This document shows positions 15-41,895 of a stretch of DNA of 64,000 nt, piece after piece. Location of the stretch: positions 22,818,432-22,882,431 of the forward strand of contig NC_092679.1 in assembly GCF_964355755.1 (NCBI RefSeq). Reading direction: 5' to 3'. The position numbers and the translations under genes were made by a program. Within the stretch, counting starts at the first letter, position 1. The number at the start of each line of letters is the position of its first letter. Origin of the DNA: Antedon mediterranea. Its lineage: Eukaryota; Echinodermata; Crinoidea; Comatulida; Antedonidae. A model generated the notes under the pieces. It ran no database searches and was not told where the DNA came from. It worked only from the letters and a program-made list of their open reading frames with translations.

Positions 15-23
15 ACGAGTGAG
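15..23. repeat. Left target-site duplication of the giant foldback element
   Basis: The 9 bases ACGAGTGAG lie immediately before the first base of the left terminal inverted repeat. The identical 9 bases follow the last base of the right terminal repeat at 15353-15361. A perfect 9-bp duplication exactly abutting both ends marks a transposition event and fixes the element boundaries. Confidence 0.93.
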
Positions 24-172
24 GCTTGTGTCAAGCTAGCCAACAATAAGCCAGCCAACAATAAGCCAGCCCACTTTTATTTTTTCCAGCCAACAATAAC
101 TATGAAACGCCGTTTGTGCATTCTTTACATTTTCATTGTTACTTATGGCTTTTATGGTATTAGGAATTAAAT
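24..172 (+). repeat. Left outer inverted repeat with 15-bp sub-repeats
   Basis: This unique-sequence outer domain carries 15-bp sub-repeats of the form CCAGCCAACAATAAG: copies at 36-50 (one change), 51-65, a partial at 66-72 and another at 86-100 (last base changed). It continues to about 172, where the first ~184-bp unit starts. Its reverse complement at 15203-15352 is nearly perfect. In other foldback elements such outer domains are thought to be the transposase-binding end; that role is inferred here. Confidence 0.9.
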
Positions 173-3100
173 ATTTGTGAGAAAAACGGCGGATTGTTCC
201 TGGGATTCACTAGGTGGGATTATACTAGGGTACCCCCTTAGTCGTCCAGTATAAGTTAGAGTGGGACCAATGGTCCCGTTTACTCAGCCCTCATCTTTAA
301 AATTTGAGTGTAACTCAATTACAATTTTTAAAATATAGTTAAATTTGAAACTGTATTTGTGAGAAAATGGCGGATTGTTCCTGGGAGTCACTTGGTGGGA
401 TTATACTAGGGTACCCCCTTAGTCGTCCAGTATAAGTTAGAGTGCGACCACTGGTCCCGTTTACTCAGCCCTCATCTTTAAAATTTGAGTGTAACTCAAT
501 TACAATTTTTAAAATATAGTTAAATTTGAAACTGTATTGGTGAGAAAATGGCGGATTGTTCCTGGGAGTCACTTGGTGGGATTATACTAGGATACCTCCT
601 TAGTCGTACACTATAAGTTAGAGTGGGACCACTGGTACCATTTACTCAGCCCTCATCTTTTAAATTTGAGTGTAACTCATTTACGATTTAAAAAATATAG
701 TGAAATTTGATACTGTATTTGTGAGAAAATGGCGGATTGTTCCTGGGAGTCACTTGGTGGGATTATACTAGGGTACCTCCTTAGTTGTCCAGTATAAGTT
801 AGAGTGGGACCACTGGTCCCGTTTACTCAGCCCTCATCTTTAACATTTGAGTGTAACTCATTTACGATTTTTAAAATATAGTGAAATTTGATACTGTATT
901 TGTGAGAAAACGGCGGATTGTTCCTGAGAGTCACTTGGTGGGATTATACTAGGGTGCCTCCTTAGTAGTCCAGTATAAGTTAGAGTGGGACCACTGGTCC
1001 CGTTTACTCAGCCCTCATCTTTTAAATTTGAGTGTAACTCATTTACGATTTAAAAAATATAGTGAAATTAGATACTGTATTTGTGAGAAAACGGCGGATT
1101 GTTCCTGGGAGTCACATGGTGGCATTATACTAAGGTACGCCCTTAGTCGTCCAGTATAAGTTAGAGTGCGACCACTGGTTCCGTTTACTCAGCCCTCATC
1201 TTTTAAATTTGAGTGTAACTCAATTACGGTAAACATTTTTAAAATATAGTGAAAATTGATACTGTATTTGTGAGAAAATGGCGGATTTTTCCTTGGAGTC
1301 ACTTGGTGGGATTATACTAGGGTACCTCCTTAGTTGTCCAGTAGAAGTTAGAGTGGGACCACTGGTCCCGTTTACTCAGCCCTCATCTTTAACGTTTGAG
1401 GGTAACTCAATTACGATTAATATTTTAAAATATAGTGAAATTTGATACTGTATTTGTGAGAAAATGGCGGATTGTTCCCGAGAGTCACTTGGTGGGATTA
1501 TACTAGGGTACCTCCTTAGTTGTCCAGTTTAAGTTAGAGTGGGACCACTGGTCCCGTTTACTCAGCCCTTATCTTTAAAATTTGAGTGTAACTCATTTAC
1601 GATTAATATTTTAAAATATAGTGAAATTTGATACTGTATTTGTGAGAAAATGGCGGATTGTTCCTGGGAGCCACTTGGTGGGATTATACTAGGGTACCTC
1701 CTTAGTTGTCCAGTATAAGTTAGAGTGGGACCACTGGTCCCGTTTACTCAGCCCTCATCTTTAAAATTTGAGTGTAACTCATTTACGATTTTAAAAATAT
1801 AGTGAAATTTGATACTGTATTTGTGAGAAAACGGCGGATTGTTCCTGGGAGTCACATGGTGGCATTATACTAAGGTACGTCCTTAGTCGTCCAGTAGAAG
1901 TTAGAGTGGGACCACTGGTCCCGTTTACTCAGCCCTCATCTTTAACATTTGAGTGTAACTCAATTACGATTAATATTTTAAAATATAGTGAAATTTGATA
2001 CTGTATTTGTGAGAAAATGGCGGATTGTTCCCGAGAGTCACTTGGTGGGATTATACTAGGGTACCTCCTTAGTTGTCCAGTTTAAGTTAGAGTGGGACCA
2101 CTGGTCCCGTTTACTCCGCCCTTATCTTTAAAATTTGAGTGTAACTCAATTACGGTAAAACATTTTAAAATATAGTGAAAATTGATACTGTATTTGTGAG
2201 AAAATGGCGGATTGTTCCTGGGAGCCACTTGGTGAGATTTTACTAGGGTACCCCCTTAGTTGTGCAGTATAAGTTAGAGTGGGACCACGGGTCCCGTTTA
2301 CTCAGCCCTCATCTTTAAAATTTGAGTGTAACTCATTTACGATTTTTAAAATATAGTAAAATTTGAAACTGTATTTGTGAGAAAACGGCGGATTGTTCCT
2401 GAGAGTCACTTGGTGGGATTATATTAGGGTACCTCCTTAGTTGTCCAGTATAAGTTAGAGTGGGACCACTGGTCCCGTTTGCTCAGCCCTCATATTTAAA
2501 ATTTGAGTGTAACTCATTTACGATTTTAAAAATATAGTGAAATTTGATACTGTATTTGTGAGAAAACGGCGGATTGTTCCTGGGAGTCACATGGTGGCAT
2601 TATACTAAGGTACGTCCTTAGTCGTCCAGTATAAGTTAGAGTGCGACCACTGGTTCCGTTTACTCAGCCCTCATGTTTTAAATTTGAGTGTAACTCAATT
2701 ACTGTAAAAAATTTTAAAATATAGTGAAAATTGATACTGTATTTGTGAGAAAATGGCGGATTGTTCCTTGGATTCACTTGGTGGGATTATACTAAGGTAC
2801 CTCCTTAGTTGTCCAGTAGAAGTTAGAGTGGGACCACTGGTCCCGTTTACTCAGCCCTCATCTTTAACGTTTGAGTGTAACTCAATTACGATTAATATTT
2901 TAAAATATAGTGAAATTTGATACTGTATTTGTGAGAAAATGGCGGATTGTTCCTGGGATTCACTTGGTGGGATTATACTAGGGTACCTCCTTAGTTGTCC
3001 AGTATAAGTTAGAGTGGGACCACTGGTCCCGTTTACTCAGCCCTCATCTTTAACATTTGAGTGTAACTCATTTACGATTTTTAAAATATAGTGAAATTTG

Positions 3101-6100
3101 ATACTGTATTTGTGAGAAAACGGCGGATTGTTCCTGAGAGTCACTTGGTGGGATTATACTAGGGTGACTCCTTAGTAGTCCAGTATAAGTTAGAGTGGGA
3201 CCACTGGTCCCGTTTACTCAGCCCTCATCTTTTAAATTTGAGTGTAACTCATTTACGATTTTAAAAATATAGTGAAATTAGATACTGTATTTGTGAGAAA
3301 ACGGCGGATTGTTCCTGGGAGTCACATGGTGGCATTATACTAAGGTACGCCCTTAGTCGTCCAGTATAAGTTAGAGTGCGACCACTGGTTCCGTTTACTC
3401 AGCCCTCATCTTTTAAATTTGAGTGTAACTCAATTACGGTAAAAATTTTTAAAATATAGTGAAAATTGATACTGTATTTGTGAGAAAATGGCGGATTGTT
3501 CCTTGGAGTCACTTGGTGGGATTATACTAGGGTACCTCCTTAGTTGTCCAGTAGAAGTTAGAGTGGGACCACTGGTCCCGTTTACTCAGCCCTCATCTTT
3601 AACGTTTGAGGGTAACTCAATTACGATTAATATTTTAAAATATAGTGAAATTTGATACTGTATTTGTGAGAAAATGGCGGATTGTTCCCGAGAGTCACTT
3701 GGTGGGATTATACTAGGGTACCTCTTTAGTTGTCCAGTTTAAGTTAGAGTGGGACCACTGGTCCCGTTTACTCAGCCCTAATCTTTAAAATTTGAGTGTA
3801 ACTCATTTACGATTAATATTTTAAAATATAGTGAAATTTGATACTGTATTTGTGAGAAAATGGCAGATTGTTCCTGGGAGCCAATTGGTGGGATTATACT
3901 AGGGTACCCCCTTAGTTGTGCAGTATAAGTTAGAGTGGGACCACTGGTTCCGTTTACTCAGGCCTCATCTTTAAAATTTGAGTGTAACTCATTTACGATT
4001 TTTAAAATATAGTAAAATTTGAAACTGTATTTGTGAGAAAACGGCGGATTGTTCCTGAGAGTCACTTGGTGGGATTATACTAAGGTACCTCCTTAGTTGT
4101 CCAGTATAAGTTAGAGTGGGACCACTGGTCCCGTTTACTCAGCCCTCATCCTTAAAATTTGAGTGTAACTCATTTACGATTTTAAAAATATAGTGAAATT
4201 TGATACTGTATTTGTGAGAAAACGGCGGATTGTTCCTGGGAGTCACATGGTGGAATTATACTAAGGTACGTCCTTAGTCGTCCAGTAGAAGTTAGAGTGG
4301 GACCACTGGTCCCGTTTACTCAGCCCTCATCTTTAACGTTTGAGTGTAACTCAATTACGATTAATATTTTAAAATATAGTGAAATTTGATACTGTATTTG
4401 TGAGAAAATGGCGGATTGTTCCCGAGAGTCACTTGGTGGGATTATACTAGGGTACCTCCTTAGTTGTCCAGTTTAAGTTAGAGTGGGACCACTGGTCCCG
4501 TTTACTCAGCCCTTATCTTTAAAATTTGAGTGTAACTCAATTACGGTAAAACATTTTAAAATATAGTGAAAAATGATACTGTATTTGTGAGAAAATGGCG
4601 GATTTTTCATTGGAGTCACTTGGTGGGATTATACTAGGGTACCTCCTTAGTTGTCCAGTAGAAGTTAGAGTAGGACCACTGGTCCCGTTTACTCAGCCCT
4701 CATCTTTAACGTTTGAGTGTAACTCAATTACGATTAATATTGTAAAATATAGTGAAATTTGATACTGTATTTGTGAGAAAATGGCGGATTGTTCCCGAGA
4801 GTCACTTGGTGGGATTATACTAAGGTACCTCCTTAGTTGTCCAGTAGAAGTTAGAGTGGGACCACTGGTCCCGTTTACTCAGCCCTCATCTTTAACGTTT
4901 GAGTGTAACTCAATTACGATTAATATTTTAAAATATAGTGAAATTTGATACTGTATTTGTGAGAAAATGGCGGATTGTTCCTGGGAGTCACTTGGTGGGA
5001 TTATACTAGGGTACCTCCTTAGTTGTCCAGTATAAGTTAGAGTGGGACCACTGGTCCCGTTTACTCAGCCCTCATCTTTAACATTTGAGTGTAACTCATT
5101 TACGATTTTTAAAATATAGTGAAATTTGATACTGTATTTGTGAGAAAACGGCGGATTGTTCCTGAGAGTCACTTGGTGGGATTATACTAGGGTGACTCCT
5201 TAGTAGTCCAGTATAAGTTAGAGTGGGACCACTGGTCCCGTTTACTCAGCCCTCATCTTTTAAATTTGAGTGTAACTCATTTACGATTTTAAAAATATAG
5301 TGAAATTAGATACTGTATTTGTGAGAAAACGGCGGATTGTTCCTGGGAGTCACATGGTGGCATTATACTAAGGTACGCCCTTAGTCGTCCAGTATAAGTT
5401 AGAGTGTGACCACTGGTTCCGTTTACTCAGCCCTCATCTTTTAAATTTGAGTGTAACTCAATTACGGTAAAAAATTTTTTAAAATATAGTGAAAATTGAT
5501 ACTGTATTTGTGAGAAAATGGCGGATTTTTCCTTGGAGTCACTTGGTGGGATTATACTAGGGTACCTCCTTAGTTGTCCAGTAGAAGTTAGAGTGGGACC
5601 ACTGGTCCCGTTTACTCAGCCCTCATCTTTAACGTTTGAGGGTAACTCAATTACGATTAATATTTTAAAATATAGTGAAATTTGATACTGTATTTGTGAG
5701 AAAATGGCGGATTGTTCCCGAGAGTCACTTGGTGGGATTATACTAGGGTACCTCTTTAGTTGTCCAGTTTAAGTTAGAGTGGGACCACTGGTCCCGTTTA
5801 CTCAGCCCTAATCTTTAAAATTTGAGTGTAACTCATTTACGATTAATATTTTAAAATATAGTGAAATTTGATACTGTATTTGTGAGAAAATGGCAGATTG
5901 TTCCTGGGAGCCAATTGGTGGGATTATACTAGGGTACCCCCTTAGTTGTGCAGTATAAGTTAGAGTGGGACCACTGGTTCCGTTTACTCAGGCCTCATCT
6001 TTAAAATTTGAGTGTAACTCATTTACGATTTTTAAAATATAGTAAAATTTGAAACTGTATTTGTGAGAAAACGGCGGATTGTTCCTGAGAGTCACTTGGT

Positions 6101-9100
6101 GGGATTATACTAAGGTACCTCCTTAGTTGTCCAGTATAAGTTAGAGTGGGACCACTGGTCCCGTTTACTCAGCCCTCATCCTTAAAATTTGAGTGTAACT
6201 CATTTACGATTTTAAAAATATAGTGAAATTTGACACTGTATTTGTGAGAAAACGGTGGATTGTTCCTGGGAGTCACATGGTGGAATTATACTAAGGTACG
6301 TCCTTAGTCGTCCAGTAGAAGTTAGAGTGGGACCACTGGTCCCGTTTACTCAGCCCTCATCTTTAACGTTTGAGTGTAACTCAATTACGATTAATATTTT
6401 AAAATATAGTGAAATTTGATACTGTATTTGTGAGAAAATGGCGGATTGTTCCCGAGAGTCACTTGGTGGGATTATACTAGGGTACCTCCTTAGTTGTCCA
6501 GTTTAAGTTAGAGTGGGACCACTGGTCCCGTTTACTCAGCCCTTATCTTTAAAATTTGAGTGTAACTCAATTACGGTAAAACATTTTAAAATATAGTGAA
6601 AATTGATACTGTATTTGTGAGAAAATGGCGGATTTTTCCTTGGAGTCACTTGGTGGGATTATACTAGGGTACCTCCTTAGTTGTCCAGTAGAAGTTAGAG
6701 TAGGACCACTGGTCCCGTTTACTCAGCCCTCATCTTTAACGTTTGAGTGTAACTCAATTACGATTAATATTGTAAAATATAGTGAAATTTGATACTGTAT
6801 TTGTGAGAAAATGGCGGATTGTTCCCGAGAGTCACTTGGTGGGATTATACTAAGGTACCTCCTTAGTTGTCCAGTTTAAGTTAGAGTGGGACCACTGGTT
6901 CCGTTTACTCAGCCCTTATCTTTAAAATTTGAGTGTAATTCATTTACGATTAATATTTTAAAATATAGTGAAATTTGATACTGTATTTGTGAGAAAATGG
7001 CGGATTGTTCCTGGGAGCCACTTGGTGAGATTATACTAGGGTACCCCCTTAGTTGTGCAGTATAAGTTAGAGTGGGACCACTGGTCCCGTTTACTCAGCC
7101 CTCATCTTTAAAATTTGAGTGTAACTCATTTACGATTTTTAAAATATAGTAAAATTTGAAACTGTATTTGTGAGAAAACGGCGGATTGTTCCTGAAAGTC
7201 ACTTGGTGGGATTATACTAGGGTACCTCCTTAGTTGTCCAGTATAAGTTAGAGTGGGACCACTGGTCCCGTTTACTCAGCCCTCATCTTTAAAATTTGAG
7301 TGTAACTCATTTACGATTTTAAAAATATAGTGAAATTTGATACTGTATTTGTGAGAAAACGGCGGATTGTTCCTGGGAGTCACATGGTGGCATTATACTA
7401 GGGTACGTCCTTAGTCGTCCAGTATAAGTTAGAATGCGACCACTGGTTCCGTTTACTCAGCCCTCATGTTTTAAATTTGAGTGTAACTCAATTACTGTAA
7501 AAAATTTTAAAATATAGTGAAAATTGATACTGTATTTGTGAGAAAATGGCGGATTGTTCCTTGGATTCACTTGGTGGGATTATACTAAGGTACCTCCTTA
7601 GTTGTCCAGTAGAAGTTAGAGTGGGACCACTGGTCCCGTTTACTCAGCCCTCATCTTTAACGTTTGAGTGTAACTCAATTACGATTAATATTTTAAAATA
7701 TAGTGAAATTTGATACTGTATTTGTGAGAAAATGGCGGATTGTTCCCGAGAGTCACTTGGTGGGATTATACTAGTGTACCTCCTTAGTTGTCCAGTTTAA
7801 GTTAGAGTGGGACCACTGGTCCTGTTTACGCAGCCCTTATCTTTAAAATTTGAGTGTAACTCATTTACGATTAATATTTTAAAATATAGTGAAATTTGAT
7901 ACTGTATTTGTGAGAAAATGGCGGATTGTTCCTGGGAGCCACTTGGTGGGATTATACTAGGGTACGCCCTTAGTTGTGCAGTATAAGTTAGAGTGGGACC
8001 ACTGGTCCCGTTTACTCAGCCCTCATCTTTAAAATTTGAGTGTAACTCATTTACGATTTTTAAAATATAGTAAAATTTGAAACTGTATTTGTGAGAAAAC
8101 GGCGGATTGTTCCTGAGAGTCACTTGGTGGGATTATAGTAGGGTACCTCCTTAGTTGTCCAGTATAAGTTAGAGTGGGACCACTGGTCCCGTTTACTCAG
8201 CCCTCATCTTTAAAATTTGAGTGTAACTCATTTACGATTTTTAAAATATAGTGAAATTTGATACTGTATTTGTGAGAAAACGGCGGATTGTTCCTGAAAG
8301 TCACTTGGTGGGATTATACTAGGGTACCCCCTTAGTCGTCCAGTATAAGTTAGAGTGGGACCACTGGTCCCGTTTACTCAGCCCTCATCTTTAAAATTTG
8401 AATGTAACTCATTTACGATTTTAAAATATAGTGAAAATTGATACTGTATTTGTGAGAAAATGGCGGATTGTTCCTTGGATTCACTTGGTGGGATTATACT
8501 AAGGTACCTCCTTAGTTGTCCAGTAGAAGTTAGAGTGGGACCACTGGTCCCGTTTACTCAGCCCTCATCTTTAACGTTTGAGTGTAACTCAATTACGATT
8601 AATATTTTAAAATATAGTGAAATTTGATACTGTATTTGTGAGAAAATGGCGGATTGTTCCCGAGAGTCACTTGGTGGGATTATACTAGTGTACCTCCTTA
8701 GTTGTCCAGTTTAAGTTAGAGTGGGACCACTGGTCCTGTTTACGCAGCCCTTATCTTTAAAATTTGAGTGTAACTCATTTACGATTAATATTTTAAAATA
8801 TAGTGAAATTTGATACTGTATTTATGAGAAAATGGCGGATTGTTCCTGGGAGCCACTTGGTGGGATTATACTAGGGTACGCCCTTAGTTGTGCAGTATAA
8901 GTTATAGTGGGACCACTGGTCCCGTTTACTCAGCCCTCATCTTTAAAATTTGAGTGTAACTCATTTACGATTTTTAAAATATAGTAAAATTTGAAACTGT
9001 ATTTGTGAGAAAACGGCGGATTGTTCCTGAGAGTCACTTGGTGGGATTATAGTAGGGTACCTCCTTAGTTGTCCAGTATAAGTTAGAGTGGGACCACTGG

Positions 9101-11019
9101 TCCCGTTTACTCAGCCCTCATCCTTAAAATTTGAGTGTAACTCATTTACGATTTTTAAAATATAGTGAAATTTGATACTGTATTTGTGAGAAAACGGCGG
9201 ATTGTTCCTGAAAGTCACTTGGTGGGATTATACTAGGGTACCCCCTTAGTCGTCCAGTATAAGTTAGAGTGGGACCACTGGTCCCGTTTACTCAGCCCTC
9301 ATCTTTAAAATTTGAGTGTAACTCATTTACGATTTTAAAAATATAGTGAAATTTGATACTGTATTTGTGAGAAAACGGCGGATTGTTCCTGGGAGTCACA
9401 TGGTGGCATTATACTAAGGTACGTCCTTAGTCGTCCAGTAGAAGTTAGAGTGGGACCACTGGTCCCGTTTACTCAGCCATCATCTTTAACGTTTGAGTGT
9501 AACTCAATTACGAATAATATTTTAAAATATAGTGAAATTTGATACTGTATTTGTGAGAAAATGGCGGATTGTTCCCGAGAGTCACTTGGTGGGATTATAC
9601 TAGGGTACCTCCTTAGTTGTCCAGTAGAAGTTAGAGGGGGACCACACTGGTCCCGTTTATTCAGCCCTCATCTTTAACGTTTGAGTGTAACTCAATTACG
9701 ATTAATATTGTAAAATATAGTGAAATTTGATACTGTATTTGTGAGAAAATGGCGGATTGTTCCCGAGAGTCACTTGGTGGGATTATACTAGGGTACCTCC
9801 TTAGTGGTCCAGTTTAAGTTAGAGTGGGACCACTGGTCCCGTTTACTCAGCCCTTATCTTTAAAATTTGAGTGTAACTCATTTACGATTAATATTTTAAA
9901 ATATAGTGAAATTTGATACTGTATTTGTGAGAAAATGGCGGATTGTTCCTGGGAGCCACTTGGTGGGATTATACTAGGGTACCCTCTTAGTTGTGCAGTA
10001 TAAGTTAGAGTGGGACCACTGGTCCCGTTTACTCAGCCCTCATCTTTAAAATTTGAGTGTAACTCATTTACGATTTTTAGAATATAGTAAAATTTGAAAC
10101 TGTATTTGTGAGAAAACGGCGGATTGTTCCTGAGAGTCACTTGGTGGGATTATACTAGGGTACCTCCTTAGTTGTCCAGTATAAGTTAGAGTGGGACCAC
10201 TGGTCCCGTTTACTCAGCCCTCATCTTTAAAATTTGAGTGTAACTCATTTACGATTTTAAAAATATAGTGAAATTTGATACTGTATTTGTGAGAAAACGG
10301 CGGATTGTTCCTGGGAGTCAAATGGTGGCATTATACTAAGGTACGTCCTTAGTCGTCCAGTATAAGTTGGAGTGCGACCACTGGTTCCGTTTACTCAGCC
10401 CTCATCTTTTAAATTTGAGTGTAACTCAATTACGGTAAAAAAATTTAAAATATAGTGAAAATTGATACTGTATTTGTGAGAAAATGGCGGATTGTTCCTT
10501 GGAGTCACTTGGTGGAATTATACTAGGGTACCTCCTTAGTTGTCCAGTAGAAGTTAGAGTGGGACCACTGGTCCCGTTTACTCAGCCCTCATCTTTAAAA
10601 TTTGAGTGTAACTCATTTACGATTTTTAAAATATAGTAAAATTTGAAACTGTATTTGTGAGAAAACGGCGGATTGTTCCTGAGAGTCACTTGGTGGGATT
10701 ATAGTAGGGTACCTCCTTAGTTGTCCAGTATAAGTTAGAGTGGGACCACTGGTCCCGTTTACTCAGCCCTCATCTTTAAAATTTGAGTGTAACTCATTTA
10801 CGATTTTTAAAATATAGTGAAATTTGATACTGTATTTGTGAGAAAACGGCGGATTGTTCCTGAAAGTCACTTGGTGGGATTATACTAGGGTACCCCCTTA
10901 GTCGTCCAGTATAAGTTAGAGTGGGACCACTGGTCCCGTTTACTCAGCCCTCATCTTTAAAATTTGAGTGTAACTCATTTACGATTTTTAAAATATAGTT
11001 TAGAGTGGGACCACTGGTA
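173..11019 (+). repeat. Left arm: ~59 forward copies of a ~184-bp tandem repeat
   Basis: I counted about 59 unit starts at the recurring TATTTGTGAGAAAA phrase, with spacing mostly 181-190 bp. In order, each unit holds TGTGAGAAAAYGGCGGATTG, a GTCACTTGGTGGG stretch, a GGTACC core, the near-perfect palindrome GGGACCACTGGTCCC, TTTACTCAGCCCTCATC, the short inverted repeat GAGTGTAACTC, and an AT-rich TTTAAAATATAGT spacer. Length variation comes mainly from two spacer types (with or without GATTAATATT). Groups of variants recur in the same order, showing multi-unit duplication. No coding signal is seen. Confidence 0.95.
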
Positions 11020-11080
11020 CAAATTTCACTATATTTTATTTTTTTAATTTTTTTTATTTATTAATTTAAAAGATGAGGGC
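10990..11080. other. Inversion junction at the centre of the foldback element
   Basis: The last forward unit runs into AAATATAGT at about 11000. It is followed by a forward fragment, TAGAGTGGGACCACTGGTAC, to 11020. From 11021 the sequence reads AAATTTCACTATATTTTA, which is the reverse-orientation unit. The next 50 bases are unusually T-rich before normal reverse units resume at about 11070. There is thus essentially no loop of unique DNA between the arms. Confidence 0.88.
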
Positions 11081-14000
11081 TGAGTAAACGGAACAAGTGG
11101 TACCACTCTAACTTTTACTGGACGACCAAGGAGGTACCCTAGTACAATCCCACCAAGTGACTCTCAGGAACAATCCGCCATTTTTTCACAAATACAGTTT
11201 CAAATTTCACTATATTTTAAAAATCGTAAATGAGTTACACTCAAATTTTAAAAATGAGGGCTGAGTAAACGGGACCAGTGGTCCCACTCTAACTTATACT
11301 GGACGACTAAGTGGGTACCCAAGTATAATCCCACCAAGTGACTCCCAGGAACAATCCGCCATTTTCTCACAAATACAGTATCAAATTTCACTATATTTTT
11401 AAAATCGTAAATGAGTTACACTCAAATTTTAAAGATGAGGGCTGAGTAAACCGGACCAGTGGTCCCACTCTAACTTATACTGGACGACTAAGGGGGTACC
11501 CTAGTATAATCCCACCAAGTGACTGCCAGGAACAATCCGCCATTTTCTCACAAATACAGTATCAAATTTCACTATATTTTAAAATATTAATCGTAATTGA
11601 GTTACACTCAAATTTTAAAGATAAGGGCTGAGTAAACGGGACCAGTGGTCCCACTCTAACTTAAACTGGACAACTAAGGAGGTACCCTAGTATAATCCCA
11701 CCAAGTGACTCCCAGGAACAATCCGCCATTTTCTCACAAATACAGTATCAATTTTCACTATATTTTAAATTTTTTTATCGTAATTGAGTTACACTCAAAT
11801 TTAAAAGATGAGGGCTTAGTAAACGGAACCAGTGGTCCCACTATAACTTATACTGGACGACTAATCCCACCAAGTGACTCTCAGGAACAATCCGCCGTTT
11901 TCTCACAAATACAGTTTCAAATTTCACTATAATTTAAAAATCGTAAATGAGTTACACTCAAATTTTAAAGATGAGGGCTGAGTAAACGGGACAAGTGGTC
12001 CCACTCTAACTTATACTGGACGACTAAGGGGGTACCCTAGTATAATCCCACCAAGTGACTCCAAGGAACAATCCGCCATTTTCTCACAAATACAGTATCA
12101 AATTTCACTATATTTTAAAAATCGTAAATGAGTTACACTCAAATTTTAAAGATGAGGGCTGAGTAAACCGGACCAGTGGTCCCACTCTAACTTATACTGG
12201 ACGACTAAGGAGGTACCCTAGTATAATCCCACCAAGTGACTCCCAGGAACAATCCGCCATTTTCTCACAAATACAGTATCAATTTTCACTATATTTTAAA
12301 TTTTTTTATCGTAATTGAGTTACACTCAAATTTAAAAGATGAGGGCTGAGTAAACGGAACCAGTGGTCGCACTCTAACTTATACTGGACGACTAAGGACG
12401 TACCTTAGTATAATCCCACCATGTGACTCCCAGGAAAAATCCGCCGTTTTCTCACAAATACAGTATCTAATTTCTCTATATTTTTAAAATCGTAAATGAG
12501 TTACACTCAAATTTAAAAGATGAGGGCTGAGTAAACGGGACCAGTGGTCCCACTCTAACTTCTACTGGACGACTAAGGAGGCACCCTAGTATAATCCCAC
12601 CAAGTGACTCTCAGGAACAATCCGCCGTTTTCTCACAAATACAGTATCAAATTTTACTATATTTTAAAAATCGTAAATGAGTTACACTCAAATTTAAAAG
12701 ATGAGGGCTGAGTAAACGGGACCAGTGGTCCCACTCTAACTTATACTGGACGACTAAGGGGGTACCCTAGTATAATCCCACCAAGTGACTCTAAGGAACA
12801 ATCCGCCGTTTTCTCACAAATACAGTATCAAATTTCACTATATTTTAAAAATCGTAAATGAGTTACACTCAAATTTTAAAGATGAGGGCTGAGTAAACGG
12901 GACCAGTGGTCCCACTCTAACTTATACTGGATAACTAAGAAGGTACCCTAGTATAATCCCACAAAGTGACTCCCAGGAACAATCCGCCATTTTCTCACAA
13001 ATACAGTATCAAATTTCACTATATTTTTTAAAATCGTAAATGAGTTACACTCAAATTTTAAAGATGAGGGCTTAGTAAACGGGACCAGTGGTCCCACTAT
13101 AACTTATACTGGACGACTAAGGGTACGGTGTACCCTAGTATAATCCCACCAAGTGACTCTCAGGAACAATCCGCCGTTTTCTCACAAATACAGTTTCAAA
13201 TTTCACTATATTTTAAAAATCGTAAATGAGTTACACTCAAATTTTAAAGATGAGGGCTTAGTAAACGGGACCAGTGGTCCCACTATAACTTATACTGGAC
13301 GACTAAAGGGGTACCCTAGTATAATCCCACCAAGTGACTCCAAGGAACAATCCGCCATTTTCTCACAAATACAGTATCAAATTTCACTATATTTTAAAAA
13401 TCGTAAATGAGTTACACTCAAATTTTAAAGATGAGGGCTGAGTAAACCGGACCAGTGGTCCCACTCTAACTAATACTGGACGACTAAGGAGGTACCCTAG
13501 TATAATCCCACCAAGTGACTCCCAGGAACAATCCGCCGTTTTCTCACAAATACAGTATCAAATTTCACTATATTTTAAAATATTAATCGTAATTGAGTTA
13601 CACTAAAAAACTTTAAAGATGAGGGCTGAGTAAACGGAACCAGTGGTCGCACTCTAACTTATACTGGACGACTAAGGACGTACCCTAGTATAATCCCACC
13701 AAGTGACTCCCAGGAACAATCCGCCATTTTCTCACAAATACAGTATCAATTTTCACTATATTTTAAAAATGTTATCGTAATTGAGTTACACTCAAATTTA
13801 AAAGATGAGGGCTGAGTAAACGGGACCAGTGGTCCCACTCTAACTTATAGTGGACGGATATGGAGGTTCCCTAGTATAATCCCACCAAGTGACTTCCAGG
13901 AACAATCCGCCATTTTCTTACAAATACAGTATCAAATTTCACTATATTTTAAAATATTAATCGTAAGTGAGTTAAACTCAAATTTAAAAGATGAGGGCTG

Positions 14001-15202
14001 AGTAAACGGGACCAGTGGTCCAACTCTAACTTTACTGGACCACTAAGGAGGTACCCTAGTATAATCCCACCAAGTGACTCCCAGGAACAATCGGCCATTT
14101 TCTCACAAATACAGTATCAAATTTCACTATATTTTAAAATATTAATCGTAATTGAGTTACACTCAAATTTAAGAGATGACGGTTTAGTAAACGGGGCCAG
14201 TGGTCCCACTCTAACTTATACTGGACGACTAATGACGTACCCTAGTATAATCCCACCATGTGACTCCCAGAAACAATCCGCCGTTTTCTCACAAATACAG
14301 TATCAAATTTCACTATTTTTTAAAAATCGTAAATGAGTTACACTCAAATTTAAAAGATGAGGGCTTAGAGTAAACGGGACCAGTGGTCCCACTTTAACTT
14401 ATACTGGACGACTAAGGGGGTACCCTAGTATAATCCCACCAAATGACTCTCAGGAACAATCCGCCGTTTTCTCACAAATACAGTATCAAATTTCACTATA
14501 TTTTTAAAATCGTAAATGAGTTACACTCAAATTTTAAAGATGAGGGCTGAGTAAACGGGACCAGTGGTCCCACTCTAACTTATACTGGACAACTAAGGAG
14601 GTACCCTAGTATAATCCCACCAAGTGACTCCCAGGAACAATCCGCCATTTTTTCACAAATACAGTATCAAATTTCACTATATTTTTTAAATCGTAAATGA
14701 GTTACACTCAAATTTAAAAGATAAGGGCTGAGTAAACTATACCAGTGGTCCCACTCTAACTTTTCCTGTACGACTTAGGAGGCACCCTAGTATAATCCCA
14801 CCAAGTGACTCTCAGGAACAATCCGCCATTTTCTCACCAATACAGTTTCAAATTTAACTATATTTTAGAAATTGTAATTGAGTTACACTCAAATTTTAAA
14901 GATGAGGGCTGAGTAAACGGGACCAGTGGTCGCACTCTAACTTATACTGGACGACTAAGGGGGTACCCTAGTATAATCCCACCAAGTGACTCCCAGGAAC
15001 AATCCGCCATTTTCTCACAAATACAGTTTCAAATTTAACTATATTTTAAAAATCATAATTGAGTTACACTCAAATTTTAAAGATGAGGGCTGAGTAAACG
15101 GGACCATTGGTCCCACTCTAACTTATACTGGACGACTAAGGGGGTACCCTAGTATAATCCCACCAAGTGAATCCCAGGAACAATCTGCCGTTTTTCTCAC
15201 AA
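11021..15202 (-). repeat. Right arm: ~23 reverse copies of the same ~184-bp tandem repeat
   Basis: About 23 units of the same repeat read in reverse orientation, each with TCCGCCATTTTCTCACAAAT. They are on the whole more varied than the left-arm units: one unit near 11862 lacks about 17 bp around the GGTACC core, and several carry private substitutions. Two short open frames here (11705-11932 and 13153-13410) are readings of the repeat itself and share the same peptide phrases, so they are not genes. Confidence 0.95.
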
Positions 15203-15352
15203 ATATTTAATTCCTAATACCATAAAAGCCATAGTAACAATGAAAATGTAAAGAATGCACAAACGGCGTTTCATAGTTATTGTTGGCTGGAAAAAATAAA
15301 AGTGGGCTGGCTTATTGTTGGCTGGCTTATTGTTGGCTAGCTTGACACAAGC
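15203..15352 (-). repeat. Right outer inverted repeat with 15-bp sub-repeats
   Basis: This is the reverse complement of 24-172 with a single 1-base indel (TTACTATGG here, TTACTTATGG on the left). It ends in CTTGACACAAGC at 15352, directly before the 9-bp target duplication. The same 15-bp sub-repeats appear as TTATTGTTGGCTGG. Confidence 0.92.
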
Positions 15353-15361
15353 ACGAGTGAG
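15353..15361. repeat. Right target-site duplication of the giant foldback element
   Basis: ACGAGTGAG, identical to positions 15-23 and directly abutting the right end of the element. Confidence 0.93.
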
Positions 15362-19374: not shown

Positions 19375-19383
19375 GCCCCGCCC

Positions 19384-20337
19384 GCGATTTTTTTTTTCGT
19401 ACATAAGTTGGGGACCCCTTCATGAAACGTCACAAAATAAACATGAATAATTCATCAGTTAAATTTTCTTGTTCCATGTGCACCCAAGCGTATAGCAACA
19501 AGAAGTGATTACACAATACATTACAACTGCGACACGATTCTAGGCCTATCTCCGCTGTGGTTGCGGCGTGCGATTTCATAGAAGAATAGCGTCGTTTTGT
19601 GTGGATTGTCGAAATAATCAGCCTTTGGTTTATGGTGTTTTTAATATAATTTATTAATAAAAAAATTACGTTATAAAATTATAGTTTCTATTAATACTAT
19701 TAGGCCTAATTATTAAATATTAGTCTCTAAACCCATTTCTATTCTAGGCCTAGTAGTAGCTGTGTGGTGTGTGTGACGTGTGTGTGTTAGGTATGACACA
19801 GTCCCAGTAATAAGTCAGCAAAATTAAACAATAAACATTACACAAAAATACATTTTTTATTCTCGTGAGTCTAATCTTCCCATCTCATGTGTTCATATTA
19901 TACGCGCATTTTTAAAAGTTCCTTTGAGTACATGCATATTGTTTGATAATAAAATAGCAGAATTAAAAAATTACAGTACACAAATTATATACATTTTTTA
20001 TTCTTGTGGGTCTAAGCTTTCTTTGGGCTATGTCCAATTAACTACAGTACTTAGTTTAATATCTTGCCTAGCTGTCGATTAGCCTCGACACATTTTGCAT
20101 AGTGGTGTGTGTGTGAAGATTAAGAAGAGTGCGCGAAGGCAATCACGTGAATTGACCTAGAATCCTGGGCCTACTGTAGAAAGAATCGTATCGCAGTTTA
20201 GTTGTGCGTGTAATCACTTCTTGTTGCTATACGCTTGGGTGCACACGGAACAACAAATTTAACTGATGAATTATTCATGTTTATTTTGTGACGTTTCATG
20301 AGGGGGTCCCCAACTTATGTACGAAAAAAAAAATCGC
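19384..20337. mobile_element. 954-bp inverted-repeat element with perfect 9-bp target duplication
   Basis: Both ends carry an inverted repeat starting GCGA, a run of ten T, then CGTACATAAGTTGGGGACC. The repeat is about 130 bp long with only a handful of differences (19384-19514 against 20208-20337), and weaker similarity continues about 30 bp inward. GCCCCGCCC sits at 19375-19383 and again at 20338-20346, directly abutting both ends. The interior is AT- and GT-rich, non-coding, and includes a diverged direct repeat around CATTTTTTATTC (about 19850 and 19992). Long inverted repeats, a leading G and a 9-bp duplication fit a non-autonomous Mutator-like element; the superfamily is inferred from duplication length alone. 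Confidence 0.88.
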
Positions 20338-20346
20338 GCCCCGCCC

Positions 20347-25901: not shown

Positions 25902-26041
25902 TAAAGCTCTGTCTACACTATACAACTTTATGTGATAAAAAAATGTGGTGTGCCCATATATGGACATACCATTATATTTGGGCACATCACATTTTTTTGT
26001 CAAATTAATTTGATAGTGTAGACAGTGTAGACAGAGCTTTA
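25902..26041. mobile_element. TA-flanked miniature transposon, AAGCTCTGTCTACAC family, near-complete copy
   Basis: TA then AAGCTCTGTCTACACTAT at the left is mirrored by GTGTAGACAGAGCTT then TA at the right. The second, inner pair is TGTGGTGTGCCCATATATGG and TTTGGGCACATCACA. The right end carries a small internal duplication of GTGTAGACA. TA flanks and short inverted ends fit a Tc1/mariner-type miniature element, an inference from the flanks. Related copies lie at 26.1, 36.4, 39.7, 41.8, 51.6 and 63.0 kb. Confidence 0.82.
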
Positions 26042-28450: not shown

Positions 28451-28566
28451 CAGTGGTGGCGCCAGCGGGGGGGCTACGGGGGCTGTATCCCCCTCGTCGG
28501 GGAGCCTAGCCCCCACGTCGGGGAACGCGAGTACTTTTCGTCGGGGAATATAATATAAAGTATTTT
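28451..28566 (+). repeat. GC-rich left end of the hAT-like element with G-runs
   Basis: Within about 100 bases the plus strand has runs of 7, 5, 4, 4 and 4 G (28476-28546), spaced to permit a G-quadruplex. The sequence shares CGTCGGGGA and TAGCCCCC motifs with the right end. A minus-strand frame (28415-28612) across it is spurious. Confidence 0.6.
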
Positions 28567-30687
28567 TTGCAAGAATTACAAAGTAATCAGTGGAATGATG
28601 TGCTATTCTCAAATAATGCGAATGTTGCTTATCAAAATTTTACAAACACTTTAAATAAAACAATTGATAATTGTTTCCCTTTAAAACGAATTAGAAATAA
28701 GGCGAACAAGTTAAAATCTCCTTGGATCACAGCTGAAATTGCCAGAGCTATCTCTCAAAAACATAAATTATATAAAAAGTACAAACAAAATAACACCACT
28801 ACTAATAAAAGTACGTACATACATTTTAGAAACAAGTTAACCACTACTATTAGAAATCGGAAAAAAGAATATTATATGGTCCAGTTTGAACGAAATAAAC
28901 AAGATATTAAAAAAACGTGGACAATCCTAAATGATATAATGGGTAGGAAAAAGACTACCAATTTGCCTACAAAAATAAAATTGGGTACTGAGACTTTCTC
29001 TGATAATGATGAGAAAGCTGATGCATTCAACTCTTTTTTTATTAATATTGGAGAAAAACTAAATAATAAATTTAGGCATGAATCTCAAAATGAAGAAATC
29101 ACCCACAGAACTTTCTTAAAGGGAAATTTTACCTCTTCAATGTTTTTTAAGCCTGTTACTGAACATGAACTTAACCACTATATTAAAAACACAAAGAATA
29201 CTTCTCCTGGCCATGATGGTATAAGTGCCCAACTCATAAAATCTGCTTCCCCGTTTATTTTAAAACCTTTATTGCATATTATTAATACGTCATTATCATC
29301 GGGCTGTGTCCCGGCTGATATAAAAATTGCTAAAGTTATCCCGGTATTTAAGAATGGTGACATCTCCGATATAAATAATTATCGGCCTATTTCCATTTTA
29401 CCCCTTTTTTCCAAAATATTTGAGAGGATTGTGTATGATCAAACGATTTGTTACCTCTCAAAATATAACGTACTGAGTAAAACACAGTATGGATTTAGAC
29501 AACACCATTCAACTAGTCATGCTTTAATACAATCGATTGAAAAAATCACAAACGCTATTGAGAATAAAGAGTTCACACTAGGAGTTTTCCTTGATTTATC
29601 AAAAGCGTTTGATACAATCGATCATGATATATTATTAGATAAGTTAAGATTTTATGGTATAAGAGGAGTTCCGCTAAACTGGTTCTCAAACTATCTTAAA
29701 AAAAGACTACAATACACATTTATTGTTAATACTGCATCTAGTAAAATGAGAGTAAACACTGGAGTTCCTCAGGGATCCATATTGGGTCCATTATTATTTC
29801 TTATATTCATTAATGATATTAGTCTAGCATGTAACCATGTAGACATGATTATGTATGCAGATGACACAAATGTGTTTTATAGTCACAATGATATTACTCA
29901 AGCTTTTGATACAATGAACCAGGAGTTATCTATACTTTCGGACTGGTTTATTGCTAACAAATTAACGCTAAATGTAAACAAATCAAAATATGTTATATTT
30001 AAGGCTAGAAATAAGTCAGCTGACACTACCTCACTAGAATTGAGGATGGGAAATGAATGTATAGTAAAAGCTACTGAAGTTAAATTTCTAGGCTTATTTC
30101 TGGATGAAACTTTATCGTTTAATTTTCATGTAAATGAGGTAGCAAACAGTATTTCTAGAATAATTGGTGTCTTAAACAAAGTGAAGTCTATGTTATCAAG
30201 TAAAATCTTGTTAACGGTATACAATGCACTTATATTACCTAGAATAACGTATGCTATCACAGTATGGGGTGCTACTTCTGCTACAAACTTAAACCGTATA
30301 CATATTCTCCAGAAAAAAGCACTTAGAAATATTTGTCATGTTCATTTTATGCATCCTTCTCATCCACTTTTTATTTCAACCCAAACATTAAATATTTTTG
30401 ACCTTTATACAAAACACACTGCTATATTTATGTATCAATATAAACATAATCTATTACCTGAATCATTTAATAACTTATTTAGTACATCTGCCTCATTCCA
30501 TAATTACTCAACTAGAAACAGGTCAAACTACTGTCCACAACTAAAACGCACCAAAGTCGGACAGCAATGTATTTCCTACCAAGGAACACATATTTGGAAC
30601 AATTTAACAGACTATATAAAACAATCCCCCACTTTAAGTTTGTTTAAACAGAGATTAAAGCAATATTATAACAATAGAAATATTTAA
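28567..30687 (+). CDS. LINE (non-LTR retrotransposon) reverse transcriptase, 5'-truncated, frame intact
   Basis: This 706-codon frame encodes an RNA-templated DNA polymerase of CR1/jockey-like type, which copies element RNA at a nicked chromosomal site. Residues 1-130 are the basic linker that lies between endonuclease and polymerase. Visible polymerase motifs are TSPGHDG (212-218), NNYRPISILP (270-279), FLDLSKAFDTIDH (341-353, first catalytic Asp), GVPQGSILGPLLF (399-411) and MYADDT (429-434, catalytic Asp pair). The thumb and tail follow, with ITYAITVWG (560-568) and a C-terminal HIWNNLTDYIKQSPTLSLFK. The first codon listed is TTG, not a true start: the frame simply continues in from the hAT-like end, and the N-terminal endonuclease is absent. 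There are no stops or frameshifts, so the insertion is fairly young. Without a promoter, start or endonuclease it is probably not an active element by itself. Confidence 0.93.
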   Translation: MQELQSNQWNDVLFSNNANVAYQNFTNTLNKTIDNCFPLKRIRNKANKLKSPWITAEIARAISQKHKLYKKYKQNNTTTNKSTYIHFRNKLTTTIRNRKKEYYMVQFERNKQDIKKTWTILNDIMGRKKTTNLPTKIKLGTETFSDNDEKADAFNSFFINIGEKLNNKFRHESQNEEITHRTFLKGNFTSSMFFKPVTEHELNHYIKNTKNTSPGHDGISAQLIKSASPFILKPLLHIINTSLSSGCVPADIKIAKVIPVFKNGDISDINNYRPISILPLFSKIFERIVYDQTICYLSKYNVLSKTQYGFRQHHSTSHALIQSIEKITNAIENKEFTLGVFLDLSKAFDTIDHDILLDKLRFYGIRGVPLNWFSNYLKKRLQYTFIVNTASSKMRVNTGVPQGSILGPLLFLIFINDISLACNHVDMIMYADDTNVFYSHNDITQAFDTMNQELSILSDWFIANKLTLNVNKSKYVIFKARNKSADTTSLELRMGNECIVKATEVKFLGLFLDETLSFNFHVNEVANSISRIIGVLNKVKSMLSSKILLTVYNALILPRITYAITVWGATSATNLNRIHILQKKALRNICHVHFMHPSHPLFISTQTLNIFDLYTKHTAIFMYQYKHNLLPESFNNLFSTSASFHNYSTRNRSNYCPQLKRTKVGQQCISYQGTHIWNNLTDYIKQSPTLSLFKQRLKQYYNNRNI

Positions 30688-36384: not shown

Positions 36385-36830
36385 TAAAGCTCTGTCTACA
36401 CTATCAAGTTTGAAAAAAAAAGGTGTTGATGTGCCAAAATATGTAGCAGTAGCATTGGAAAAGCGAGAGAGGGGGAGGTGGTTGGGGTGGATGGAGAAAC
36501 ATACGTTTGTCTACACTATCAAAAAACGTGTGATGTGTCCAAATATGTAGAAATAGCATTGGAAAAGCGAGAGAGGGGGAGGTGGTTGCGGTGGATGGAG
36601 AGACATACGTTTGTCTACACTATCAAAAAACGTGTGATGTGCCCAAATATGTAGCAGTAGCATTGGAAAAGCGAGAGAGGGGGAAGTGGTTGGGCTGGAT
36701 GGAGAGACATATTTTTTACATGTTTGTCTACACTATCAAAAAACGTGTGATGTGCTCAAATATGGTAGTGATATCATGTCATCATGTCCATATATGGGCA
36801 CATCACATTTTTTCACATAAATTTTGATAG
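36385..36830. mobile_element. Expanded copy of the TA-flanked miniature transposon with internal tandem repeats
   Basis: It starts TAAAGCTCTGTCTACACTAT like its relatives. The inner part, GTCTACACTATCAAAAAACG to GATGGAGAGACATACG, is then repeated about three times (starts near 36391, 36506, 36610, 36723; spacing 104-115 bp) before the usual inner pair and ATTTTGATAGTGT. The last bases of the right end (AGACAGAGCTT) are missing. The frame at 36582-36827 is a reading of the repeat. Confidence 0.85.
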
Positions 36831-39275: not shown

Positions 39276-39655
39276 AACCCAGACTAATTTTAACCCATTT
39301 GTAGCTTGTAGCCATGTTTTATTTTAGTGCGAACAAATGAAGGGTTTTCGGTAGCAACATTTCGTTGTTAGCTTTTCACACAGAGAAACGCATTAAAATT
39401 CAATTTCGGACTATTACCACATTCACTTCACGCATCACATCCAAAAATGTTACAAGCAACAACTTCCGAGGTTCAAATTTACCCAAGGCATTATTACAGT
39501 TTTCGAAAACCATACGTGTACATTTTACTCGATGGACTCTCGAGGCACGCGATACTCTACATAAAATATCTTTCGGAATATTTTGTGACCATAAACTGAA
39601 CAGTATTCGGGGTAGAGATTGTGAAAAATGTATCTTATGTTTGTCGAATTATGTT

Positions 39656-39820
39656 TAAGTGTCTGTCGACACTATCAAACTTTAAGTGACAAAAACATGT
39701 GATGTGCCCATATATGGACATAATGATGTAATCATTACCATATTTGAGCATATAACTACCATATTTGGGCACATCACATTGTTTTTGTCAAACTAGTTTG
39801 ATAGTGTAAACAGAGCTTTA
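39656..39820. mobile_element. TA-flanked miniature transposon, full-length copy
   Basis: The left end TAAGTGTCTGTCGACACTAT is somewhat mutated. The right end GTGTAAACAGAGCTTTA is close to the family form. The inner inverted pair GTGATGTGCCCATATATGG / CCATATTTGGGCACATCAC is intact, and CCATATTTG occurs twice (small internal duplication). Confidence 0.82.
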
Positions 39821-40555
39821 CATGTGATTTGAAGAGTTTGCTTAGTAAGGACTGGAAGGTAGATCTAAGAGGAATTCCTCTGATGTTCTATTTGTCGCGA
39901 ATTACGCCCGCCATAATGTTTCTACGTGATATGATATGGAAGAAGGAAATATTTTATCGTCTGCTCTCTTAGTACCGCGTCACAAGATCCTAGAAGGTAG
40001 CACGACATATCGGATCCAGAAAGAATTATTCTGATCCCATTAGTCAAAATGCATAACGTTTGAACGTGATATGAAAAATGAAGGATGGACAGTTTTAATA
40101 CTTGTACACAAATTAGAAAAATGGTAAAATTCATTAAAAAATAAAACTTTAAATTTCATATTAAAGGACTTTGGTACCAAATATTGCTTATATTATTTTC
40201 GGATCGCTTAGAGGAGGCAAAGAGGAAGGAGAACAGGAGAAATCATTCCGATATCCTATTTTATCACTCCTCCACGAGTTGAACAGTTTGTCAAACACAA
40301 AGGTTTAACTTCATATACTCAAAAATGTATTTTCATTATTGTATTAGACTATGATAATTGGATCAGGTTTTCAATAAATGATTATGATATTTAAAAGCTA
40401 AACACTCTATTTACCTAAACACTGGTTTATTAAATTCTATGAAAATAAACTGTACCTATATAATTACAATAAAAATCAAGGGGCGTATAACTCAGTTTGA
40501 TTATCATTAGTTTCTCGAAAGAAATCTGGAATTATCGCTTATTGAAATAAATGGA
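39821..40555. other. AT-rich non-coding sequence
   Basis: The minus-strand frame 39922-40134 shows no domain. Nothing recognised. Confidence 0.4.
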
Positions 40556-41773: not shown

Positions 41774-41895
41774 TAAAGCTCTGTCTACACTACCATACAA
41801 AAACATGTGATGTGTCCAAATATGGTAGTGATATGACATCATCATGTCAATTTAATGGGCACATTACATAAAGTTTGATAGTGTAGACAGAATAT
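41774..41895. mobile_element. TA-flanked miniature transposon, short copy
   Basis: TAAAGCTCTGTCTACACTAC at the left and TTTGATAGTGTAGACAGAAT at the right. It includes CAAATATGGTAGTGATATGA and GGGCACATTACA. The right terminus is mutated (GAATATA instead of GAGCTTTA). Confidence 0.85.

Follow-up and report, generated by a model that had tools for sequence, protein, structure and literature searches.

A giant foldback transposon with satellite arms in the crinoid Antedon mediterranea, probably of a Rehavkus/Mutator-type family

The window analysed here, a 64,000-nucleotide stretch of Antedon mediterranea contig NC_092679.1, contains a complete foldback transposon at positions 24–15352 (hereafter WIN). 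Direct reading placed copies of the target-site duplication ACGAGTGAG on the forward strand at 15–23 and 15353–15361 and, in a search of the whole window, nowhere else; shuffled sequences were expected to contain 0.14 copies, and two or more copies occurred anywhere in just 1 of 100 shuffles. A duplication of 8 or 10 bp was, by reading, incompatible with symmetrical ends, which gives a length of 9 bp. The first-pass annotation had proposed a complete foldback element of about 15.3 kb with a perfect 9-bp duplication, and ACGAGTGAG at both edges confirms it. The same annotation would have abandoned the proposal if the flanks had belonged to a larger satellite array, and they are not satellite: the 123 bases to the left of WIN, beyond the window edge, are non-satellite by eye. 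A BLAST search for copies of the unit or tip elsewhere in the window produced no match longer than 33 bp, and an Rfam scan of the window at gathering scores gave no matches.

The non-satellite part of the terminal inverted repeat (TIR), delimited by tip alignment, comprises a 143-bp left tip (24–166, forward strand) and a 142-bp right tip (15211–15352, reverse strand) with the same palindrome and three 12-mers. A 1-bp indel is the sole difference between them (0 of 142 aligned bases differ), in agreement with the near-identical outer inverted repeats noted earlier. The terminal 18-mer was found in the window at the two WIN ends only, even when three mismatches were allowed. Each tip begins with the palindrome GCTTG-TGT-CAAGC (24–36 on the left, forward strand), followed by three copies of AGCCAACAATAA at 38–49, 53–64 and 88–99 (within 38–99, forward strand), with a 3-bp spacer between the first and second; the right-tip copies lie at 15277–15288, 15312–15323 and 15327–15338 on the reverse strand. 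All six copies of AGCCAACAATAA in the window fall within the tips, compared with 0.66 expected from shuffles (one mismatch allowed), and we presume that they are putative transposase-binding repeats. A sequence link between tip and unit, of the kind seen in Tetris, was sought in WIN, and the longest match was 7 bp. The tip 18-mer also matched a contig (L001) in a viral collection, which we took as chance because the match does not extend past the 18-mer; no exact match was obtained for a second tip pattern or a unit pattern in that collection, or for a unit pattern in a prokaryote collection.

Between the tips lies satellite only, and WIN has no transposase of its own, as an autonomous Rehavkus-type element would; it is therefore non-autonomous. 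Unit segmentation gave a left arm of 59 units of 180–189 bp (173–10999, forward strand) and a right arm of 23 units, including one of 169 bp and an innermost unit cut to 164 bp (11063–15205, reverse strand), matching the earlier estimate of about 82 units in two opposed arrays with no unique core. Long inverted arms of tandem repeats, together with the flanking duplications, place WIN in the foldback structural class. Forty-one units are 181 bp long and 33 are 186 or 187 bp, with the others at 180–189 bp apart from the 169- and 164-bp units. Mean unit identity is 0.917 among left-arm units, 0.891 among right-arm units and 0.900 between arms. Inward from the tips, the two arms stay collinear over about 0.9 kb, with 19 differences in 899 bases, and then fall out of register. 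The central junction (10999–11063; alignment and reading) consists of a 19-bp piece of forward unit, a 19-bp piece of reverse unit and about 35 bp of A/T. The left arm shows an 11-unit period (lag-11 mean 0.944, compared with 0.941 for the best of 2000 permutations over 29 lags) and contains 11-unit and 5-unit block duplications that are about 0.5% diverged.

Satellite arrays are difficult to assemble and the locus is known here from assembled sequence alone, so that one could imagine a normal satellite array that happens to contain an inverted junction, or an artefact of assembly or library preparation such as a palindromic read. We regard this as exceedingly improbable: the arms of WIN are unequal (59 versus 23 units), with an average divergence of about 10%, and the flanking duplication is direct, not inverted. 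The other copies in the genome contradict an artefact as a general explanation. A search of the 354-Mb genome that contains WIN returned 67 exact tip matches (37 forward, 30 reverse), with 0 and 0 for a control pattern. By reading of the match list, 52 of these form 26 inward-facing pairs, all but one spaced 7.5–33 kb apart; the remaining 15 lack an exact partner, although two have near-exact partners, one of them truncated. The 143-bp tip was present at 100% identity in 26 of 40 scored genome matches, WIN included. Perfect 9-bp duplications, the length found in Rehavkus, flank 19 of the 26 pairs (18 by script, and C3c by reading, allowing for a duplicated 10-bp tip); three pairs have perfect 8-bp duplications, three match at 8 of 9 bases and one at 7 of 9. 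Thus 25 of 26 pairs have at least eight matching duplicated bases, compared with none of 650 deliberately wrong pairings, two of which matched at seven. This is the outcome of the genome search for the same ends with 9-bp duplications that the first-pass annotation had suggested.

We read the interiors of 19 of the 26 pairs in full; the other seven include pairs spaced 27, 31 and 79 kb apart. All 19 have the palindrome at both ends (the search pattern itself included it) and satellite arms, comparable to the mini-satellite near the TIR in Rehavkus, and 18 are coreless at the point where the arrays switch orientation, the sole exception being the element C3a. A 1.4-kb gap in C5c was considered as a core and taken as a nested insert because it is located off the switch point. 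The arms vary between 2 units (right arm of C5b) and an uninterrupted run of 85 (left arm of C4d). Five of the 18 coreless elements that we read, WIN among them, contain a 40-bp patch of the WIN junction, in either orientation.

On another contig, with a different target duplication and different adjoining bases, lies C4a, a sister of WIN. The two have 69 units in common, in the same order and at about 0.4% divergence (49 differences over about 12.6 kb); all 47 left units of C4a and 22 of the 23 right units of WIN are shared in order. Alignment scores were 92.6 and 16.7, and the best of 40 shuffles reached -42.2 and -34.1. The shared order indicates that the common ancestor of WIN and C4a was already giant, at about 12.6 kb or more. 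This bears on the proposal that a small foldback of few units inserted at the window locus and its arrays then grew to 15 kb in place, as the block duplications in WIN could suggest. C4a has 26 extra units in its right arm and WIN 12 extra in its left, showing that arrays do change length after copies separate, and the count of 82 therefore need not equal the number of units at insertion. However, the order common to two elements at different sites makes growth from a small insertion very unlikely, and all but one of the units in the 11-unit duplication of WIN are shared with C4a.

We also considered homogenisation between the arms of an element, and rejected it for the WIN group, in which matching arms are closer between elements than within one: the left arms of WIN and C4a and the right arms of C5c and C7c are identical over 330 bp, while the two arms of WIN differ by 6. 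C1c is an exception, in that the nearest relative of its right arm is its own left arm. C7b has the junction patch in common with WIN but its arms are not collinear with those of WIN, so that sequence exchange among elements, or the re-forming of junctions, takes place as well.

C3a (C3:8279859-8313032) is a 33-kb element with its own perfect 9-bp duplication, tips that differ from those of WIN by at most one base, and a 15.7-kb core exactly at the orientation switch. The core holds further tandem repeats, one of them coding, and two open reading frames side by side. The first, transposase-like, encodes 1108 aa with a PHD finger (PF00628) at residues 152–198 (E 3.5e-5), a domain also carried by the Rehavkus transposase; the match, at 24.2 bits, lies only 0.2 bits over the cut-off of 24.0. 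The second encodes 774 aa with UCH (1.7e-20) and Ulp1 peptidase (9.8e-19) matches. No Pfam transposase model, MULE included, matched the 1108-aa ORF or, at E values up to 10, its C-terminal 449 aa, and a comparison of those 449 aa with solved structures gave nothing beyond chance. Diverged homologues of the ORF occur elsewhere, on C2, C4 and C10. In two diverged homologue fragments, near-identical to each other, D943 and C991-x-x-H994 are kept, with D868 lying outside both fragments. Of the Mutator signature, a DDE triad with CxxH, these fragments keep one D and the CxxH, and a catalytic role for this region is putative.

The lack of a Pfam transposase match and the homologues on other contigs could favour a different reading, that the coreless elements use another transposase and C3a picked up an unrelated gene cluster by chance. 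We consider this quite unlikely, since the core sits precisely at the orientation switch of an element with family tips and a target duplication of its own, and the PHD finger and 9-bp duplication together are the combination published for Rehavkus, as given in excerpts of PMC6446971. Among the matches listed (42 of 61 candidates scored), one intact 1108-aa frame was found, and at least 18 coreless giants in the genome appear to depend on this single intact gene-bearing relative. The C2 and C4 relatives are stop-free across their matched parts, indicating that another transposase source may exist. The first-pass annotation had suggested looking for a transposase gene between the same ends, and C3a, with its PHD-finger ORF, is a candidate source; along with the same-end family, it supports the earlier view of WIN as a recent insertion of an unusually large foldback, mobilised in trans.

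The sequences show both ends, the target duplications, other copies in the genome, descent of WIN from an already giant ancestor, and a gene-bearing copy that shares its ends. The best explanation as a whole is that WIN is very probably a giant non-autonomous foldback belonging to a Rehavkus/Mutator-type transposon family; the Rehavkus assignment draws on the PHD finger, 9-bp duplication and satellite. Judging from sequence, the C3a protein would bind the tip repeats and then cut at the terminal palindrome, and could insert coreless relatives at 9-bp staggered cuts, irrespective of the sequence between their tips. Coreless elements may originate during repair after excision, if the gap is filled with satellite copied from both arms and the strands rejoin inside the repeats before the core is reached; the arms may afterwards lengthen or shorten as units are exchanged in blocks. 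More tentatively, and at slightly less than even weight, we suggest that most or all of the 181-bp satellite is spread through the genome within giant hairpin elements that lack a core and owe their movement to a single surviving source gene. Array growth and transposition would then be two phases of the same life cycle, and length would not prevent movement. If true, this would be satellite DNA living as a transposon. WIN and C4a give sequence evidence that a DNA transposon can carry whole satellite arrays of about 12.6 kb to new sites. Because the family is small and includes a pair of sister elements and an intact candidate source gene, it makes satellite dispersal, array growth and the purpose of repeat-built ends testable.

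Drosophila FB and sea-urchin TU elements have inverted arms built of repeats. The first-pass annotation likened WIN to these and to Mutator-like groups; the Mutator likeness stands, but the published relatives found to be closest are Rehavkus and Tetris, not FB or TU, and the likeness to FB and TU is one of repeat-built inverted arms. FB4 has a repetitive TIR (PMC8277862). Composite repeat-built TIRs like those of WIN also occur in Tm1, a Mutator/Foldback element of root-knot nematodes, but with repeats of 13–15 bp (PMC3169594), and in Galileo, which belongs to the P superfamily and whose repeats carry extra transposase-binding sites (PMC3688188). The tip of WIN has the same layout, by description only, as that of Muta1, a type 2 foldback MULE of Aedes aegypti with a 145-bp TIR, a 10-bp imperfect terminal palindrome, 12-bp subterminal repeats with 3–4-bp spacers and 8- or 9-bp duplications; its transposase mobilises non-autonomous derivatives in yeast (PMC5225508). 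Muta1 is 3.2 kb long, and satellite arms are not described in the excerpts of that article. No closer published case was found in the excerpts of PMC13359780, PMC9659126, PMC5844308, PMC8268682 and PMC12910113.

Rehavkus elements are Mutator-related DNA transposons with 9-bp duplications, a PHD finger in the transposase and a mini-satellite, with arthropod and annelid hosts given in the excerpts of PMC6446971; Rehavkus-1_TC of Tribolium is 9.5 kb long, and its inverted termini carry the 164-bp satellite TCsat23 (PMC6446971, PMC10218199). TCsat23 arrays are described there as mostly 5 and 8 units, in contrast to the 2 to 85 units of WIN-family arms, and the Rehavkus mini-satellite lies before the 3' TIR (PMC6446971), whereas satellite occupies both arms throughout in the WIN family. 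The family differs further from Rehavkus, as described, in that 18 of the 19 elements read are coreless and in the UCH and Ulp1 ORF beside the transposase-like ORF of C3a. Tetris, a foldback of Drosophila virilis, resembles WIN in its unique tip, tandem-repeat TIRs (about 220-bp repeats), short duplications (8–10 bp) and absence of coding capacity; its repeats have been shown to amplify within the element, and they make up arrays of as many as 66 copies (PMC4079207). Tetris TIRs are at most 1,735 bp, and its authors suggested that larger arrays may have disrupted transposition (PMC4079207). Compared with Tetris, for which the excerpts report no autonomous element found, the WIN family has a candidate source and seems to have moved arrays of about 12.6 kb in one piece.

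The window element, a foldback transposon at positions 24–15352, lies between identical 9-bp target-site duplications, ACGAGTGAG, at 15–23 (starting 14 bases after the window start) and 15353–15361, the only two occurrences of this sequence in the window. Its inverted tips, which are non-satellite sequence of 143 and 142 bp, differ from each other by a single indel, and its interior comprises 82 tandem satellite units, 59 on the plus strand and 23 on the minus strand, of which 41 are 181 bp long and 33 are 186 or 187 bp long. The switch, where the orientation of the array flips, is occupied by nothing more than a patchwork of unit fragments and A/T. The first-pass annotation had described identical 9-bp edges, near-identical inverted ends with one indel, and a single repeat in two opposed arrays of about 82 units without a unique core, and all of this description was confirmed. 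The outermost 13 bp of each tip form the palindrome GCTTG-TGT-CAAGC; further in come three AGCCAACAATAA copies, the first and second of which are 3 bp apart.

The window also contains a second foldback-type element of about 956 bp (19383–20338), unrelated to the first. Its inverted ends extend to as much as 159 bp and are 92% identical overall and 99% identical over the outer 84 bp; its duplication can be read as 7 bp (CCCCGCC) or as 9 bp (GCCCCGCCC), according to how the ends are drawn. A 725-aa open frame at 28510–30687 with a reverse transcriptase domain (PF00078, 1.8e-35) is probably a non-LTR retrotransposon. A short motif, TGTCTACACTATCAAAAAACGTGTGATGTGCCCA..., is dispersed with its pieces in both orientations at 25923–26012, 36416–36813, 39644–39832 and 41799–41889, and looks like a miniature inverted-repeat element family.

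A search of the window's own genome (354 Mb, 18 contigs) with an 18-base tip returned 67 matches (37 forward, 30 reverse), compared to 0 for a control pattern. By reading of the match list, 52 of the 67 tips formed 26 inward-facing pairs, 25 with spacings of 7.5–33 kb and one with a spacing of 79 kb, and 15 tips were unpaired. Perfect 9-bp duplications were found by script for 18 of the 26 pairs, and allowing a 10-bp duplication of the left tip in one relative on contig C3, C3c, brings this to 19; other copies with the same ends and 9-bp duplications, which the first-pass annotation had proposed seeking, are thus present in the genome. At the left end of C3c (L023 241–260), the first 10 tip bases are doubled head to tail, directly inside the 9-bp target duplication. 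The remaining pairs included three with perfect 8-bp duplications, three matching at 8/9 positions (the 79-kb pair among them) and one at 7/9, while 650 wrong pairings gave none with at least 8 matches and two with 7. No fixed consensus was found among the 18 perfect duplications. When the whole 143-bp tip was searched, at least 26 genome copies, query included, were 100% identical among the 40 of 95 candidates scored, and this same set held near-exact partners for two of the unpaired tips. One newly partnered pair spans 7.5 kb with an 8/9 duplication (by reading), and the other has a truncated left tip. The 79-kb pair (C6:18981631–19060520; pieces L059, L060, L068–L074) has its 8/9 flank match in T/G-rich sequence, and satellite lies 5 kb inside its left end and is absent from six other sampled 100-base spots; possible explanations are a very large composite, insertions nested in one another, or tips paired by chance.

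Full reading covered 19 of the 26 pairs, namely the window element and 18 of the 25 others. Eighteen of these elements consist of opposed arrays of the window-type unit and are coreless at the switch, with unit coverage of 0.886–0.985 of the element. Three of the 18 showed oddities away from the switch: a 1.4-kb nested stretch in C5c, and small flips in both C3c and C4d. The exact 12-mer AGCCAACAATAA was missing from both tips in six of the 19, and the left tips of these six differ from that of the window element by 13–21 bases, indicating a more diverged subfamily.

One copy, C3a (C3:8279859–8313032; 33,174 bp; perfect duplication ATGTGCGAG), has a 15.7-kb core situated exactly at the switch, flanked by 54 and 41 units. 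The core encodes an 1108-aa frame, in which a PHD finger and a coding repeat of 39 aa occur, and a 774-aa frame (L020 4780–7104) that combines ubiquitin-hydrolase (UCH) and Ulp1 peptidase domains; the two frames may be exons of one gene. Judged from its domains, the second frame could encode a deubiquitinase/deSUMOylase that travels with the transposon. Pfam gave no transposase match for the 1108-aa frame. Its D943 and a C-x-x-H at 991–994 are kept in two diverged homologues, near-identical to each other, and conservation of these residues is expected of Mutator-type transposases. The suggested search for a transposase gene between the same ends yielded a candidate in this PHD-finger, transposase-like frame. 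Among 30 matches listed (42 of 61 candidates scored), the frame is intact at one locus, C3a; the next best locus, on C4, has many stops, and the others are distant or partial, some stop-free over the matched part. Diverged relatives with 31–32% identity occur at C2:17926767–17928141, preceded by a PHD-like match, and at C4:13582253–13582627, and represent related families in the same genome. The core also contains two more tandem-repeat tracts (L019), around CAAAATACGCAAATCATGC and TTTCATTCAAAACA.

The first 330 bp at the left end of the window element match one arm of C4a, one of C5c and one of C7c without a single difference, compared to 6 differences between the element's own left and right arms. 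The orientation of the matching arms is as predicted by a shared central patch. Between the window element and C4a, which sits on contig C4 and has another target duplication, unit order matched for 47 of 47 left-arm units of C4a and for 22 of 23 right-arm units of the window element, with 49 differences over about 12.6 kb and 37 of 69 unit pairs identical. Shuffled arms (40 per arm) scored far lower than this alignment, and alignment to the wrong C4a arm did not exceed the best shuffle score. The window element has 12 additional units in its left arm, and C4a has 26 additional units in its right arm. Shared order together with unequal arm lengths indicates that the ancestor shared by these two elements was already giant and that its arms have since changed in length by blocks. 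C7b has the central patch in common with this group and not the unit order, suggesting exchange between elements.

The 18 coreless junctions fell into 11 groups by script. Two of these (the window element with C4a, and C5c with C7b and C7c) have a 40-bp patch in common in opposite orientation, reducing the number to 10, of which three are shared and together account for 11 elements. The simplest reading is about ten separate losses of the core, with three of the products then multiplying; alternatively, junctions may have re-formed.

The observed ends, duplications, family, descent and single gene-bearing copy can be brought together in a proposed mechanism. The C3a protein would bind the tip repeats and move whatever lies between two tips, and repair of excision gaps within the repeat-rich arms could bypass the core, producing coreless elements. 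Unit number might be altered by unequal exchange or template switching, the latter a published model for the repetitive ends of Drosophila FB4 (PMC8277862). Galileo is described as having repeat-built ends with multiple transposase-binding sites (PMC3688188).

The layout of the tip is like that of Muta1, an active Mutator-like element of Aedes aegypti with an imperfect terminal palindrome followed by 12-bp repeats with 3–4-bp spacers, and duplications of 8 or 9 bp (PMC5225508); this is a likeness of layout, set side by side by description only. Rehavkus elements are, in the published account, Mutator-like; few members are known, their duplications are 9 bp long, their TIRs measure 26–400 bp with a mini-satellite preceding the 3' TIR, and they have a PHD finger (PMC6446971). 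In Rehavkus-1_TC (9.5 kb), the inverted termini carry a satellite of 164 bp, for the most part as 5 and 8 units (PMC10218199). The testable features of our family fit Rehavkus, by description rather than by transposase sequence. Tetris, a Drosophila virilis foldback whose source is described as not known, has 220-bp repeats, TIRs up to 1,735 bp and 8–10-bp duplications; its repeats were also amplified within Tetris, and they form arrays that reach 66 copies. The authors of that work suggested that transposition may have been disrupted by arrays of larger size (PMC4079207). By title or abstract start, no comparable family appeared among the literature matches listed, and one may already be in print. 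Compared to Rehavkus and Tetris, the family described here is larger in scale, with up to 85 units in one run, is nearly without cores, and provides evidence of a giant element moving whole.
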